In this document: one piece after another, positions 10,177-16,184 of the stretch
Layout of the letters: the number at the start of each line of letters is the position of its first letter
How positions within the stretch are numbered: position 1 is the first letter of the stretch
Source: a virus
Length of the DNA stretch: 28,867 bases
Virus record (IMG/VR): IMGVR_UViG_3300021956_000010
Span: 1 to 28,867 of that record
Direction: 5' to 3' (one strand)
Made by a program: the position numbers and the translations under genes
Notes under the pieces: generated by a model
What the model was told of the DNA's origin: nothing
The model's database searches: none
What the model saw: only the letters and a program-made list of their open reading frames with translations

Positions 10177-10495
10177 AGTTGTTATTTTTAGTTGTTACAA
10201 ATTCGTGAAGTTTCCAAGCGGAACGCATCGCAGCCTTCCAATCTTTCATTTTTGTCTTGCCATAATACCAATTAGTGTTGGTGTAATGGCTAATAAATAC
10301 CTCCGCAAAGTTAAGTGCATCCTCAGAAGACGCAAACGCTATTCGTTCCAAAAAATATTCCGCCACTTCCTCCATTGTCGGTGGTTGGAACGTTGTTTTT
10401 ATCCTCTTGGATTGTAATGAGTTCAACTGGTTTTCTAACGATTGTACTTTTAAAGTTAGTAAGTCGAACGCTTGTTTTAATTGCTCGTTGTTCAT
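10118..10495 (-). CDS. Replication-type protein with GK-KMKDWKAA motif
   Basis: A 125-residue protein with an N-terminal coiled coil (about 4-30). Next come QPPTMEEVAEYFLER (about 37-51) and YYGKTKMKDWKAAMRSAW (about 77-94). This PP..EV..Y ... GK.KMKDWKAA.R.W pattern is common in Bacteroidota phage and plasmid proteins encoded beside replication genes and is presumed to be a small DNA-binding or replication module. The first 58 codons overlap the end of the DnaA-C-like gene by 173 bp in another frame. A Met at residue 41 (10375) is an alternative start that would cut the overlap to 53 bp but remove the coiled coil. Overlap at the other end with the next gene is 59 bp. Confidence 0.6.
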   Translation of the reverse strand: MNNEQLKQAFDLLTLKVQSLENQLNSLQSKRIKTTFQPPTMEEVAEYFLERIAFASSEDALNFAEVFISHYTNTNWYYGKTKMKDWKAAMRSAWKLHEFVTTKNNNYESKLGRVQRSDLQQWLND

Positions 10496-10955
10496 TTAGT
10501 CGTTGTTTAAAAAGTTCACAATTATACCCCAAATCTTGCAATAAAATAACTGCTTCATCAACATAATTGCGGTAAAGCGCATCAAATGTGTATAGATCAA
10601 TCACTTTTTTGATTCCGTGCAGCACGGTTGCGTGGTCACTTTTGCCAATGGTAAATCCTATTTGCTTAAGTGTATAGTTAGTTCCTGCATATAGGAGCAA
10701 ATAACCAATGTGTCTTGCCTCAATTATGTATCTAACGCGAGACTTTGAGAATAGTTCCTTGCGGTTTAAATCGTGCGAATGGCAAAGAGTTGCAATCACA
10801 TCTTCTTCGAAAGGAGACTTTTTCAAGTTCCAATTTTCGGCTATCACCTCAATCAATTCCTGCTGAGATTCTTCGTTGTATAGGTTAAGTAATTCATTTA
10901 AGTTCTTTACTCGATGCTTAATTATAAAACTCATTAGTGCGCTATCCTTATTCAT
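10323..10955 (-). CDS. Stand-alone DnaA domain IV-like replication initiator
   Basis: A 210-residue protein whose centre (about residues 73-121) matches the DNA-binding domain IV of DnaA: IIEARHIGYLLLYAGTNYTL, then LKQIGFTIGKSDHATVLHGI. The signature pair IG..(I)GKSDHATVLH carries the base-contacting Asp-His-x-Thr-Val. No AAA+ ATPase domain is present, so it can bind origin DNA but not melt it alone. The N-terminal 60 residues are helical and may bind a partner. The C-terminal 60 are basic then low-complexity (TTDNGGSGGIFFGT), and this tail overlaps the next gene by 173 bp. It probably recruits host DnaB or DnaA to the phage origin. Confidence 0.7.
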   Translation of the reverse strand: MNKDSALMSFIIKHRVKNLNELLNLYNEESQQELIEVIAENWNLKKSPFEEDVIATLCHSHDLNRKELFSKSRVRYIIEARHIGYLLLYAGTNYTLKQIGFTIGKSDHATVLHGIKKVIDLYTFDALYRNYVDEAVILLQDLGYNCELFKQRLNEQRAIKTSVRLTNFKSTIVRKPVELITIQEDKNNVPTTDNGGSGGIFFGTNSVCVF

Positions 10956-12907: not shown

Positions 12908-13303
12908 ATGAAGCAAAAGATACTTAATTCAGTTAAGCCAAGAGCAAAAAAACCATATAGTGGTGAAGCAGGAGTTCAAATTGCGGTGATTCAGTACCTA
13001 AAAGCACAATATCCGACCGCTATTTATTGCGCATCAGCAGGTGGTATGTTCACATCAATGAAACAGGCCATCAAAATGAAGGCGACTGGATACGTTAAAG
13101 GATTTCCCGACCTTCAAATCTGCGAACCGAACGCAAAATACTACGGATTATTTATTGAATTGAAGACTGAGAAAGGTGTAGTAAGCAAAGAGCAGAAAGA
13201 ATGGATCAAACTCTTAAACAAAAGAGGCTATTATGCGTCTATATGTAAAGGATTTGCAGAGGCACAAGCCGTAATAGATGGATATTTCGCAGGAACAATA
13301 TAA
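12908..13303 (+). CDS. VRR-NUC domain nuclease
   Basis: A 131-residue protein of the PD-(D/E)xK superfamily, VRR-NUC type. In order: Glu20 in GEAGVQIAVIQYL, a conserved MFTS...MKATGYVKGFPDL with Asp68, the FIELKTEKG strand with Glu84 and Lys86, and SKEQKEW with Gln96. These give the full metal-binding set. Family members are Holliday-junction or flap-type nucleases and are frequent in phage replication/recombination blocks. It is the first gene of the rightward early block, in the divergent region opposite the minus operon, and overlaps the sigma-like gene by 26 bp. No accessory domain is present; the length is typical of phage stand-alone forms. Confidence 0.85.
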   Translation: MKQKILNSVKPRAKKPYSGEAGVQIAVIQYLKAQYPTAIYCASAGGMFTSMKQAIKMKATGYVKGFPDLQICEPNAKYYGLFIELKTEKGVVSKEQKEWIKLLNKRGYYASICKGFAEAQAVIDGYFAGTI

Positions 13304-13772
13304 CAATTACCGCAAATTTGCGAGGAATCTCACCGCATCGGATTTCGAAGGTGATGAACTTCTGCACTCCACACTTCTGAATATTCTTGAAACTGATACA
13401 TCAAAGATAAACGACATTGATTCCTACGTTATTTGTTCATTGAAGTGGGAATACATCCGACCACGTACTAGGTATAAGAAACTTATTGGAGATTTTAAGG
13501 CTAATTGGACAGACCTTGAGCCACATCAATTTGAAATAGAAGTACACAATGCGCGTGAGAGTTGGATTGGGGCAAGGATTACCAATGAGCAGTTGGATAT
13601 ATTGGTAAGTAGATTACCATTTTTTGAGAAAGAAGTGTTTAATTTATATGTGATGAATGGGTTTTCTTACCGAGAGTTATCCAATGAGACTGGAATACCT
13701 GTATCATATCTATACGACACGGTAAAACGTGCCAAAGAAGAAATAAAAAAATGCATCAAATATGACGAATAA
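13278..13772 (+). CDS. Sigma-70 family-like transcription factor
   Basis: A 164-residue protein. The C-terminal 60 residues match sigma region 4: LPFFEKEVFNLYVMNGFSYR then ELSNETGIPVSYLYDTVKRA, with the helix-turn-helix of the -35 recognition domain. The first half (DELLHSTLLNILETDTSKIN, then SYVICSLKWEYI) resembles a reduced region 2. Overall size and order fit an ECF-like sigma factor. It could redirect host RNA polymerase to phage middle or late promoters; the tail and capsid blocks lack the host-type TAnnTTTG elements seen elsewhere, which agrees with this. It overlaps the nuclease gene by 26 bp and the next gene by 11 bp. Confidence 0.7.
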   Translation: MDISQEQYNNYRKFARNLTASDFEGDELLHSTLLNILETDTSKINDIDSYVICSLKWEYIRPRTRYKKLIGDFKANWTDLEPHQFEIEVHNARESWIGARITNEQLDILVSRLPFFEKEVFNLYVMNGFSYRELSNETGIPVSYLYDTVKRAKEEIKKCIKYDE

Positions 13773-14253: not shown

Positions 14254-14435
14254 ATCTGCTACATTTCTTTTCTATGTTGTATATCACAATCGGCTTATTA
14301 CATATTGGGTACTTTACGATAGTGATCCACAGGCATTGTCTACCTTTTACAACTGAGAATATTTTGGGAATAATAATAAGCGGATTGTGTTTTCCCTACA
14401 TATGGATTAAATACTTATTGAACGATGAAGATTAG
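14250..14435 (+). CDS. Small membrane protein
   Basis: A 61-residue protein with two hydrophobic segments: about residues 3-25 (FFSMLYITIGLLHIGYFTIV) and 38-56 (ILGIIISGLCFPYIWIKYLL), separated by a short polar HRHCLPFTTEN turn. It is overlapped by 4 bp at the start and 11 bp at the end by its neighbours. Two-span hairpin proteins of this size in phages may alter the host membrane or act as an antiholin or superinfection factor. None of these is shown here. Confidence 0.55.
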   Translation: MNLLHFFSMLYITIGLLHIGYFTIVIHRHCLPFTTENILGIIISGLCFPYIWIKYLLNDED

Positions 14436-14730
14436 TTTTGATTACGATGACACCTTGACCACTTCCAAAGGTCAAGAAATGGCTTTAAATGAACTTAAAA
14501 AAGGAAATGAAGTTCTTATCTTAACAGCACGACAGGAAAGTGATTCTGCGCCAGTTTACGCAATGGCTGAAAAGTTAGGCATCAAGAAGGCAGATGTGCA
14601 TTTTACCAATGGTCAAGACAAATGGAAGTTTGTAGTGCGGTTGCACATTGATAAGCACGTAGACAACAACCAAGAACAAATACACAAGATTCGCAAATTC
14701 ACAACTGCGGAAGGTGTGTTGTTTAAGTAA
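14425..14730 (+). CDS. HAD-superfamily phosphatase
   Basis: A 101-residue protein starting MKISFDYDDTLTTSKG with the HAD nucleophile motif DxDxT (Asp6, Asp8, Thr10), motif II Thr34 in LILTAR, a Lys66 in DKWKF, and motif IV-like acidic residues in HIDKHVDNN (Asp76, Asp80). The cap is minimal, as in small phage HADs related to 5'-nucleotidases and polynucleotide phosphatases. The substrate is not known. It is the last protein gene before the structured RNA locus and is separated from that locus's promoter by only 16 bp, which leaves open a link to RNA end processing, though this is only positional. Confidence 0.75.
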   Translation: MKISFDYDDTLTTSKGQEMALNELKKGNEVLILTARQESDSAPVYAMAEKLGIKKADVHFTNGQDKWKFVVRLHIDKHVDNNQEQIHKIRKFTTAEGVLFK

Positions 14731-14746
14731 TGTTTAAAAGTAGTTA

Positions 14747-14776
14747 TTGATTTATTTAATTCACTACTTATATTTG
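14747..14776 (+). promoter_or_regulatory. Bacteroidota-type promoter driving the structured RNA
   Basis: TTG (14747-14749) and TATATTTG (14769-14776) are separated by 19 bases, the best match to the TTG-N19-TAnnTTTG promoter in the window. The expected start near 14783 falls at the foot of the first stem of the RNA (14781). Confidence 0.8.
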
Positions 14777-14780
14777 TAGT

Positions 14781-14845
14781 GTTGAGAGTAGTGAGATATT
14801 TCCCCCTTTCATTTTAACTCTCAACAGGTTTTAATGATTGGGGGA
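14781..14845 (+). ncRNA. Promoter-proximal hairpin with possible pseudoknot
   Basis: GTTGAGAGT (14781-14789) pairs with ACTCTCAAC (14817-14825), a perfect 9-bp stem. Within its loop TCCCCC (14801-14806) is complementary to GGGGGA (14840-14845) downstream, giving an H-type pseudoknot. The G run is followed by ACTTTTTTA, so the second pairing could also act like the 3' arm of a terminator. This could be a 5' cap on the RNA or an attenuator. Pairings are seen; folding energies were not computed. Confidence 0.55.
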
Positions 14846-14856
14846 CTTTTTTATTT

Positions 14857-14963
14857 AGTCAGGTGGCGGAATGGTAACGCACATATAACGAGAGTTTGTA
14901 CAGCTCGCCTGAAAAGTAAGTTATGTGGTGGTATAAATACAGGTTCGAATCCTGTCCTGACTA
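14857..14963 (+). tRNA. tRNA-like module 1, Tyr-type anticodon GTA, extended anticodon arm
   Basis: Acceptor AGTCAGG (14857-14863) pairs with CCTGACT (14956-14962), with discriminator A at 14963 and no encoded CCA. The D arm is GCG-GAATGGTAA-CGC (14866-14880), with the GG of the D loop. The T arm is ACAGG-TTCGAAT-CCTGT (14939-14955), fully canonical. The middle is odd: the anticodon-like hairpin at 14892-14906 offers a 7-base loop TTGTACA (anticodon GTA, U33 present, but C at position 37). It is pushed out from the core by an extra 8-bp helix CATATAAC/GTTATGTG (14882-14889/14920-14927). Total length is 107. It may be a divergent type II tRNA-Tyr or a tRNA mimic that RNase P and the CCA enzyme would still recognise. 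Confidence 0.5.
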
Positions 14964-14973
14964 CAATCTGAAA

Positions 14974-15015
14974 TCACAACGGTCGGGCGGTTGTGACGAA
15001 TGGAGGGTAGCCCGA
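14974..15015 (+). ncRNA. H-type pseudoknot between the tRNA-like modules
   Basis: TCACAAC (14974-14980) pairs with GTTGTGA (14990-14996), 7 bp. The nine-base loop contains TCGGGC (14983-14988), the exact complement of GCCCGA (15010-15015) just downstream. This gives a compact H-type pseudoknot filling the spacer between the two tRNA-like modules (14964-15019). A short competing hairpin GGG-TAG-CCC (15005-15013) would disrupt it, so it could switch. Confidence 0.6.
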
Positions 15016-15019
15016 ACAT

Positions 15020-15086
15020 AGTCAGGTAGTTTAATTGGTAAAACTCCTAACAAGGAAGATTACAGGTTCAAATCCTGTTCTGACTA
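15020..15086 (+). tRNA. tRNA-like module 2 with a truncated anticodon arm
   Basis: Acceptor AGTCAGG (15020-15026) pairs with TCTGACT (15079-15085), with discriminator A at 15086. The D arm is GTTT-AATTGGTA-AAAC (15029-15044), canonical. The T arm is ACAGG-TTCAAAT-CCTGT (15062-15078), canonical. Between D and T arms there are only 17 bases, where a tRNA needs about 22. At best TCC/GGA (15045-15047/15054-15056) forms a 3-bp stem with a 6-base loop TAACAA. It therefore cannot present a normal anticodon. Acceptor and T arm are almost identical to module 1, suggesting duplication and use as a structural or processing signal, not as a decoding tRNA. Confidence 0.5.
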
Positions 15087-15092
15087 CAAACT

Positions 15093-15136
15093 CAATCATT
15101 GGCGGTTAAAACGCTTGGGTGATTGTTTTACGCGTT
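15093..15136 (+). ncRNA. Structured RNA domain, hairpin with possible loop contact
   Basis: CAATCA (15093-15098) pairs with TGATTG (15120-15125). The 21-base loop contains GCG (15102-15104) that can pair with CGC (15112-15114). Alternatively AACGC (15110-15114) can pair with GCGTT (15132-15136) downstream to make a pseudoknot like the one at 14974-15015. Confidence 0.45.
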
Positions 15137-15145
15137 ACAAGGGGA

Positions 15146-15255
15146 TGATGGCATAGCGCAACCGTAGCATAAAGGACAAAGCGGTAAGACCATCACACGA
15201 GCCGAGAATCGTGTTAAAGTAGTGTCCAGGTCAAAGGTCATCGGTGACACTTTGA
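15146..15255 (+). ncRNA. Structured RNA domain, nested stems with competing pairings
   Basis: TGATGG (15146-15151) pairs with CCATCA (15190-15195), enclosing ACCGT/GCGGT (15161-15165/15181-15185). ACACGA/TCGTGT (15195-15200/15209-15214) follows, sharing base 15195. A 10-bp hairpin then has TCAAAGGTCA (15231-15240), tetraloop TCGG, and TGAC-A-CTTTGA (15245-15255) with one bulged A. AGTGTC (15221-15226) could instead pair with GACACT (15246-15251), which would break the 10-bp hairpin. GGACA (15174-15178) could pair with TGTCC (15223-15227). The set of exclusive choices suggests either long-range tertiary contacts or a switch. Confidence 0.5.
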
Positions 15256-15274
15256 AACTTGAAGGTGAAAGGAC

Positions 15275-15356
15275 TCATTCGACTGAATGATAATTAGCAC
15301 TTAAGAGAGGATGACAACTGATGTTAAAGTCAGTTAGGATATTCTCATTCTCTCTT
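15275..15356 (+). ncRNA. 3' hairpins of the structured RNA
   Basis: TCATTC (15275-15280) and GAATGA (15285-15290) close a GACT tetraloop. A two-step element follows: AAGAGAG (15303-15309) with CTCTCTT (15350-15356), enclosing AACTGA (15316-15321) with TCAGTT (15330-15335). An ATG at 15321 lies inside this hairpin, which argues against it being a start codon. No T run follows, so this does not look like an intrinsic terminator; read-through into the next genes or RNase processing is likely. Confidence 0.5.
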
Positions 15357-15413
15357 GGTTCAGAATCTATTCTCTTGAATAATATATTAACTATATATAT
15401 AATAGATAACAAT

Positions 15414-15602
15414 ATGACATACCAAGTATATAGAATAAATACAAATCAAAATTTAACATTGCTTGAATTTGAGATTTATGATGTTTCAGATTTGGATATA
15501 GAAAATAACATTGCAACTTTTTATTCTCTTAATGAAAGGTGTTCTTCTTATAAAAAATCAGTTATTAATCTTGACTATTATATAATCTTTAAAAAGCCAT
15601 GA
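15414..15602 (+). CDS. Hypothetical protein (62 residues)
   Basis: A 62-residue beta-rich acidic protein beginning MTYQVYRINTNQNLTLLEFE and ending in INLDYYIIFKKP. I chose the ATG at 15414 over an in-frame ATG at 15321. The upstream part would overlap the RNA hairpin and encode an unlikely hydrophobic leader. No family is recognised. It overlaps the next gene by 4 bp and begins the operon that follows the RNA locus; no separate promoter is seen, so it may be co-transcribed with the RNA. The stretch from 15357 to 15413 is very AT-rich and holds nothing else I can identify. Confidence 0.5.
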   Translation: MTYQVYRINTNQNLTLLEFEIYDVSDLDIENNIATFYSLNERCSSYKKSVINLDYYIIFKKP

Positions 15603-15955
15603 TTATACTTCCAGCACAAATTGAATCTATTAAAAGTCGTAAAGATAGAACTACCGCCATTGTAATAGGCACAAATGAACTTACACCCGAACAGGCAGGT
15701 CAAATCTTTAGCCTACAAAATTCGTTTGTCTATTGCGCTCTAAAAGAAGAAGAATTTGCGTCTAAAGAGAAGGAGGTTCTTGATGAGTTAAAAGCCGACT
15801 TTGAGATTGAAAAGAAAAGCAATGGTCAACGATTGAGAAACGTTCTTTACAAACTATGGGAACAAGACAAAGAAGGATTTTTAACCTTTGCCAAGTTTTA
15901 CGACCACAAGATGGAACAACTGATAAACCATTTTAAAACGAAGTTAGATGTTTAA
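15599..15955 (+). CDS. Conserved Bacteroidota phage protein, function unknown
   Basis: A 118-residue protein with LPAQIESIKSRKDRTTAIVI, an N-terminal beta part with GTNELTPEQAGQIFSL, then a charged helical region. Late segments read GQRLRNVLYKLWEQ and FAKFYDHKMEQLINHFK. I have seen this arrangement (I-x-S-I-x-S-R-x-D near the start and R-L-R-x-V-L-Y-x-x-W later) in many Bacteroidota phage early regions, often near ssDNA-handling genes. No catalytic motif is evident. It overlaps both neighbours by 4-8 bp. Confidence 0.65.
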   Translation: MIILPAQIESIKSRKDRTTAIVIGTNELTPEQAGQIFSLQNSFVYCALKEEEFASKEKEVLDELKADFEIEKKSNGQRLRNVLYKLWEQDKEGFLTFAKFYDHKMEQLINHFKTKLDV

Positions 15956-16184
15956 GAAGTGTTTCCATTGTAACTGGAATTTGCCTTTGTTTTGGTTTCA
16001 AGTGGATCGTAGACCATATAAAAGAGAACACGACAAAGGTAGAGTTAAAGTCTGTAGACGATGCACGTATAATAGTTTCAATAAGTTGGGTTATGCGTGG
16101 CTTGTAAACATTGATTCAAATAAATTTGAAAAGAAGATTTTTAGCAGTAAATTAGACGCATTAATAACAGCATTAAATGTATAA
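15948..16184 (+). CDS. Small zinc-finger-like protein
   Basis: A 78-residue basic protein with two CxxC pairs, CFHC (residues 5-8) and CRRC (about 36-39), separated by an aromatic and basic loop (WFQVDRRPYKREHDKGRVKV). This resembles a small HNH-like or zinc-ribbon knuckle but lacks the HNH catalytic histidines. Likely a nucleic-acid or protein binder. It overlaps the upstream gene by 8 bp and the MazG-like gene by 8 bp. Confidence 0.6.
   Translation: MFKKCFHCNWNLPLFWFQVDRRPYKREHDKGRVKVCRRCTYNSFNKLGYAWLVNIDSNKFEKKIFSSKLDALITALNV

Follow-up and report, generated by a model that had tools for sequence, protein, structure and literature searches.

A covarying phage RNA and a mobile family of anticodon-less tRNA shells with exchanged inserts

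GOLLD and ROOL, large pseudoknotted phage RNAs that lie near tRNA genes and whose function is unknown, are the described RNAs closest in setting to the locus reported here. The linkers of GOLLD can hold tRNAs (PMC12286853). Both RNAs exceed 600 nt, whereas the present one measures about 370 nt, has a different fold, resides in a small phage genome and carries as its inserted module an anticodon-less tRNA shell. The original prediction for this locus had named both for their similar size and tRNA-rich setting. The locus is neither of them: a permissive Rfam search of the window, i.e. the whole stretch of 28,867 nucleotides of viral DNA that was analysed, and of four homologous loci matched neither.

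Phage tRNAs and tRNA arrays have the acceptor, the elbow and the 3' end in common with the elements described below, and the shells are interspersed with real tRNA genes. In contrast to phage tRNAs the shells are devoid of an anticodon arm, and only the middle differs from copy to copy within a common shell. tmRNA likewise joins an anticodon-less tRNA shell to other structure, yet the elements lack the G3-U70 alanine identity pair, a tag reading frame was not seen, and neither ARAGORN nor Rfam called a tmRNA in the window. YrlA, a bacterial Y RNA, contains a tRNA-mimicking module within a noncoding RNA. It was rejected with an Rfam score of 25.8 bits against a threshold of 69, and among the window proteins scanned there was no match to the Ro protein. 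tRNAOther of Bacillus cereus is a pseudo-tRNA that is unused in translation (PMC3399842); unlike the shells it is a single cellular gene without an exchangeable hypervariable insert. No description of a constant tRNA shell with an exchanged insert was found in Rfam 15 or in the searchable open literature. As far as these show, the organisation is apparently new, while its parts, a tRNA shell and a phage noncoding RNA, are of known kinds.

Leader and core of the RNA locus

The structured RNA locus extends from 14747 to 15383 on the + strand and comprises a host-type promoter, a leader with an H-type pseudoknot and a core of about 300 nt:

14747-14776, + strand: Bacteroidota-type promoter TTG-N19-TATATTTG, from sequence, with a TANNTTTG box in homologues
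14781-14844, + strand: H-type pseudoknot of the leader, with P1 14781-14789/14817-14825
14802-14806/14840-14844 and 14810-14813/14833-14836, + strand: leader helices P2 and P2b, from covariation
15088-15383, + strand: core RNA, from covariation in 24 distinct homologues
15090-15100/15118-15128 and 15101-15104/15112-15115, + strand: core P3 and P3b
15146-15151/15190-15195 and 15161-15164/15182-15185, + strand: core P4 and P4b
15196-15200/15209-15213 and 15174-15178/15223-15227, + strand: core P5 and pseudoknot
15231-15240/15245-15255 and 15276-15280/15285-15289, + strand: core P6 and P7
15304-15314/15345-15355 and 15369-15372/15377-15380, + strand: core P8 and P9

Patterns derived from the core retrieved promoter, leader and core together from 28 other viral contigs, giving 29 loci, of which 24 to 26 are distinct when near-duplicate contigs are discounted. 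L176 and L191 were discarded as chance matches of the core pattern. A cellular origin of the core was rejected, as 395 Bacteroidota genomes contained a single weak match of 47 nt. The TANNTTTG box was found at the same offset in 29 of 29 loci; conservation of the -33 TTG was not seen across them. The promoter ends 4 nt upstream of the first leader stem. The original prediction had regarded it as the best host-type promoter of the genome. Its presence was confirmed and its uniqueness was not, with four matches of the TTG-N19-TANNTTTG pattern in the window versus 1.09 expected and a second TATATTTG version at 2169-2198.

The tree-based null used here was our own implementation after R-scape with 60 to 300 simulated alignments. 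In 22 distinct leader sequences 92.7% of the cells were paired and 9 of 18 pairs had changed on both sides. The leader scores for paired cells, doubly changed cells and covariation were reached by none of 500 shuffles, and the count of doubly changed pairs was equalled by one of 500. The number of further pair types was reached by 59 of 500 shuffles and is therefore uninformative. Against the tree-based null the G-C to C-G swap in P1 had E=0, and pairs of P1, P3 and P5 met no equally strong null pair. The core, counted as 61 pairs excluding P9, had 97.1% of its cells paired in 24 distinct homologues. Nineteen of its pairs were doubly changed, compared with 9.5 in shuffles (0 of 500 matched) and 1 to 4 in slid controls. 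In L197 four pairs of P6 were altered together from TCAAAG/CTTTGA to CTAATT/AATTAG. Covariation could not show in P4, in the inner pseudoknot (GGACA/TGTCC) or in most of P7, which are too invariant.

The inverted repeats on which the original prediction was built are genuine, with covariation of the principal ones among homologues. Its central claim of a large structured phage RNA that has a promoter of its own and contains tRNA-like modules is borne out by the promoter box in all 29 loci and by the covariation of leader and core. It had staked itself on covariation and on the lack of a coding signal; covariation was present and a coding signal absent. No protein frame is conserved in the homologues, so that a protein gene in the RNA region was rejected, in line with what had been predicted. 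The only sizeable ORF overlapping the region, 93 aa from 15321, can equally start at 15414, beyond the structured region, and is absent from homologues. A frame of about 41 codons (ATGGCGGTG...), spotted by eye in several homologues, is interrupted by stop codons both in the window and in L106. Permissive Rfam searches gave no match for the core in the window and four homologous loci, and nothing credible in 14300-16000 beyond two tRNA matches, both without an anticodon. The expectation that no named class would fit was therefore upheld. The core is a covariation-supported phage RNA class that is compact enough for structure work.

P7 (15276-15289) and P9 (15369-15380) share their variable letters, X (A/G/T) and W (A/T), throughout the 24 sequences. 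They occur in five combinations that follow identity and not complementarity, and X exceeds the tree-based null. A third partner for this variation was looked for and none was found.

The phage is small and its host is probably a member of the Bacteroidota, as suggested by the promoter type and the likeness of the shells to tRNA-Leu. The window also encodes a protein with a DnaA C-terminal domain (10323-10955) and a sigma-factor-like protein (13278-13769), the latter with a Pfam match just below cut-off and a PHROG sigma factor match.

The cassette site and the tRNA-shell family

In 20 of the 29 phages the last stem strand of the leader directly abuts the first core stem. In the other nine a cassette, 101-242 nt long, occupies precisely this junction, and at least four types of cassette were distinguished. 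L106, L184, L199, L200 and L202 have one tRNA-like element each, with a different insert, L179/L196 and L197 have other tRNA-like sequences, and the window has two elements:

14857-14963, + strand: tRNA-like element 1, RF00005 46.8 bits, A73 at 14963; acceptor 14857-14863/14956-14962, D stem 14866-14868/14878-14880, T stem 14939-14943/14951-14955
14881-14938, + strand: cargo (insert) of element 1, substituted for the anticodon and variable arms, with covarying helices; stem 14882-14889/14920-14927, inner hairpin 14892-14895/14903-14906
14974-15014, + strand: spacer with H-type pseudoknot, from sequence only; TCACAAC 14974-14980/GTTGTGA 14990-14996 and CGGGC 14984-14988/GCCCG 15010-15014
15020-15086, + strand: tRNA-like element 2, RF00005 48.9 bits, with a short insert (CTCCTAACAAGGAAGATT region) replacing the anticodon arm

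The tRNA-like modules are genuine, both scores being above the gathering threshold of 29. Both retain complete acceptor, D and T arms. Neither has an anticodon arm, its place being taken by about 58 nt in element 1 and by a shortened stretch in element 2, which is why ARAGORN did not call a tRNA in the window. The 3' motif of the element 1 insert was present in 31 viral contigs and the insert motif of element 2 in 24. Among 21 distinct relatives of element 1, 97.2% of the cells were paired and 10 pairs were doubly changed, 9 of them within the insert; taken alone against the tree-based null, element 1 was weak, with E=0.37 for the best pair. The insert of element 1 is a conserved RNA under structural selection. 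Compared with element 2, the T stem of L074 is changed from ACAGG/CCTGT to GCGGG/CCCGC. The 7+5 bp pseudoknot of the spacer had an equally strong match in 6 of 2000 shuffles, and a search for homologues of 14974-15014 found none.

When compared module by module with viral contigs, the tRNA-like elements and the leader and core differed in their distribution. A 27-nt pattern of T-arm and acceptor matched at least 119 viral contigs. The loci collected from all searches contained 308 distinct elements in 176 loci. Up to 14 copies occurred in a contig, all on one strand, and a control with the reversed pattern gave zero. The shared shell consists of an acceptor AGTCAGG/CCTGACT or close variants, a D-loop with GG (kept in 256 of 266 elements among the loci collected) and the T-arm. 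Its constancy is in part a matter of selection because the T-arm served as bait for the 119-contig sample; copies within contigs that were not bait, e.g. 12 in G001, agree with the shell. The tRNA-like modules form a family of their own, mobile and very widespread, and are not a fixed part of the leader-core RNA. A permanent fusion of them with the large RNA did not survive the empty cassette sites of 20 relatives.

The D-arm of the shell, GTGGCGGAATTGGTAGACGC, is identical to that of Bacteroidota tRNA-Leu genes, and A73 is also present. With up to three mismatches the 5' half of the shell was found in 39 of 296 Bacteroidota genomes, and the loci checked were tRNA-Leu. A prophage or host origin was rejected, as just three contigs of the genome collection contained the exact 5' half. 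In GenBank phages element 1 matched one record and a generic shell query gave short partial matches only. A dedicated promoter lies near 17 of 266 cassettes; most have none. Among the loci collected, 262 of 308 elements are not callable as a tRNA with a 3-nt anticodon. tRNA finders miss the shells because the anticodon is absent, and Rfam sees only odd tRNAs. Contig L089 mixes about a dozen shell elements with 16 ordinary tRNA genes between positions 1 and 13875.

Variability and exchange of the inserts

Among the loci collected, 244 inserts fell into 164 clusters with 127 singletons. Fifty-three pairs of elements from different contigs had homologous flanks on both sides and different inserts, a count that is approximate because some pairs are neighbouring array elements or have mis-set 5' ends. 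The clearest swap is seen at a single intergenic slot shared by eight contigs (L028, L042, L053, L058, L063, L073, L114 and L115), where the flanks are mostly about 90-95% identical and about six unrelated inserts occur. Most of these contigs have a TATATTTG box that ends 4 nt ahead of base 1. In L042 and L058 the insert of this slot resembles by eye the anticodon and variable arm of a real tRNA-Leu(UAA); it is possibly an ancestral form or a functional tRNA.

Taken together, the inserts were only a little more folded than their shuffles (mean z -0.40 ± 0.08). Pseudoknots of 6+6 bp numbered 10 versus 2.8 in shuffles. Those of 5+5 bp did not clearly outnumber the ones in random genomic segments (36 versus 29.9 ± 4.3), and the pseudoknot enrichment is thus weak. 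Inserts as antisense to phage genes were rejected, since 314 of 314 within-element matches were sense; seven insert matches outside elements resembled missed elements. A reading as tRNA introns was also discarded. The inserts are mostly 20-140 nt long and matched no intron model, and permissive Rfam searches of the window and four homologous loci returned no group I or group II intron family.

Proposed working and rival explanations

We favor an explanation that joins a leader-core RNA with mobile tRNA-shell cassettes carrying trans-acting inserts, and consider it as a whole somewhat better than an even bet. From the host-type promoter the phage would produce a noncoding RNA of about 370 nt, made up of leader pseudoknot and core, and the core would act in trans in this phage group, as a structural or a regulatory RNA. 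Two cassettes of the separate mobile family have entered the junction of leader and core. Each is a leucine-tRNA shell (acceptor, D-arm, T-arm and A73) in which an unrelated insert has taken the place of the anticodon and variable arms. Host RNase P and RNase Z may excise the shells like ordinary pre-tRNA ends, while some other members of the family would start instead at their own promoter adjoining base 1. The shell would protect the RNA and perhaps permit leucylation or binding by tRNA-handling proteins; the well-studied bacterial LeuRS does not need the anticodon. The insert would be the active part, acting in trans on a target of the host or of a rival phage. As targets differ and fight back, inserts would be exchanged by recombination in the constant arms.

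Transcription, processing, charging, target and benefit are in this account what we infer from the sequences. The trans-acting role of the inserts in conflict is suggested because block swapping at a fixed site usually has that reason. Hypervariable inserts swapped as blocks normally reflect an arms race and are known mainly from proteins and CRISPR spacers. Most likely the elements are trans-acting phage RNAs with inserts that diversify against hosts or rival phages. More tentatively, and at slightly less than an even chance, they may constitute a natural RNA display, in which a constant Leu-tRNA shell presents exchangeable inserts as an arsenal against hosts or rivals, a counterpart of the synthetic tRNA scaffold.

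The strongest rival, though an unlikely one, is a decoy role against tRNA-targeting defence. The elements would be cleavage-resistant stand-ins that titrate tRNA-cutting defences or tRNA-binding sensors, and their variation would evade recognition. That phage tRNAs can overcome tRNA-cutting defences is known (PMC11555353), and tRNA-cleaving immune systems are diverse. The elements also keep the acceptor, the elbow and the tRNA-Leu D-arm and sit among normal tRNA genes. However, a decoy has no obvious need for a covarying insert of about 60 nt or for wholesale swapping of inserts. Anticodon-type hairpins were not enriched in the inserts either, with 8 seen versus 10.5 expected and none directly after the D stem. 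Thus the elements do not mimic anticodon arms, and the insert as an anticodon-arm mimic was rejected.

It is improbable that leader and core serve the next gene in cis as its 5' untranslated control region, as the upstream promoter and a gene able to start at 15414, 30 nt past the core, might suggest. Read from the sequences, at least eight different genes directly follow the core across the phages, which speaks for a trans-acting RNA and against a cis-leader, and a second TATATTTG-like box is usually found upstream of those genes. Slightly less probable still is the use of the shells as processing punctuation, with RNase P and RNase Z cuts releasing the flanking RNAs and the inserts as passengers. 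The exact position of the cassette between leader and core in nine phages would fit this, but 20 of 29 phages do without a cassette, some elements are solitary with their own promoter or lie in arrays, and the element 1 insert is under structural selection.

We regard as very improbable that the conserved region acts as DNA, i.e. as an origin, packaging or recombination site with hairpins in single strands. Variation of P7 and P9 as identical copies might be expected of recombination or binding sites, and the phage encodes the DnaA-C domain protein. On the other hand, the wobble pairs of the core were 122 G-U versus 1 A-C and the + strand is therefore the folded RNA; the leader alone lacked this asymmetry (1 G-U, 7 A-C). 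The fixed position of the promoter, 4 nt ahead of the first stem, likewise points to RNA. Decay of tRNA genes, which the resemblance to tRNA-Leu and the missing anticodon might bring to mind, is the least credible reading and largely contradicted already by the retained acceptor, D-loop GG and T-arm with variation confined to the middle, by the covarying element 1 inserts and by the block swaps of inserts between otherwise near-identical phages.

If the favored explanation of trans-acting inserts in mobile shells is true, an RNA version of exchangeable arms-race inserts would exist in well over a hundred viral contigs. What the inserts bind and whether the shell is charged with leucine become testable questions.

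In two relatives of element 1 (L128 3151-3288 and L129 168-294) the D-loop carries an extra insertion and is a second variable site of the shell.
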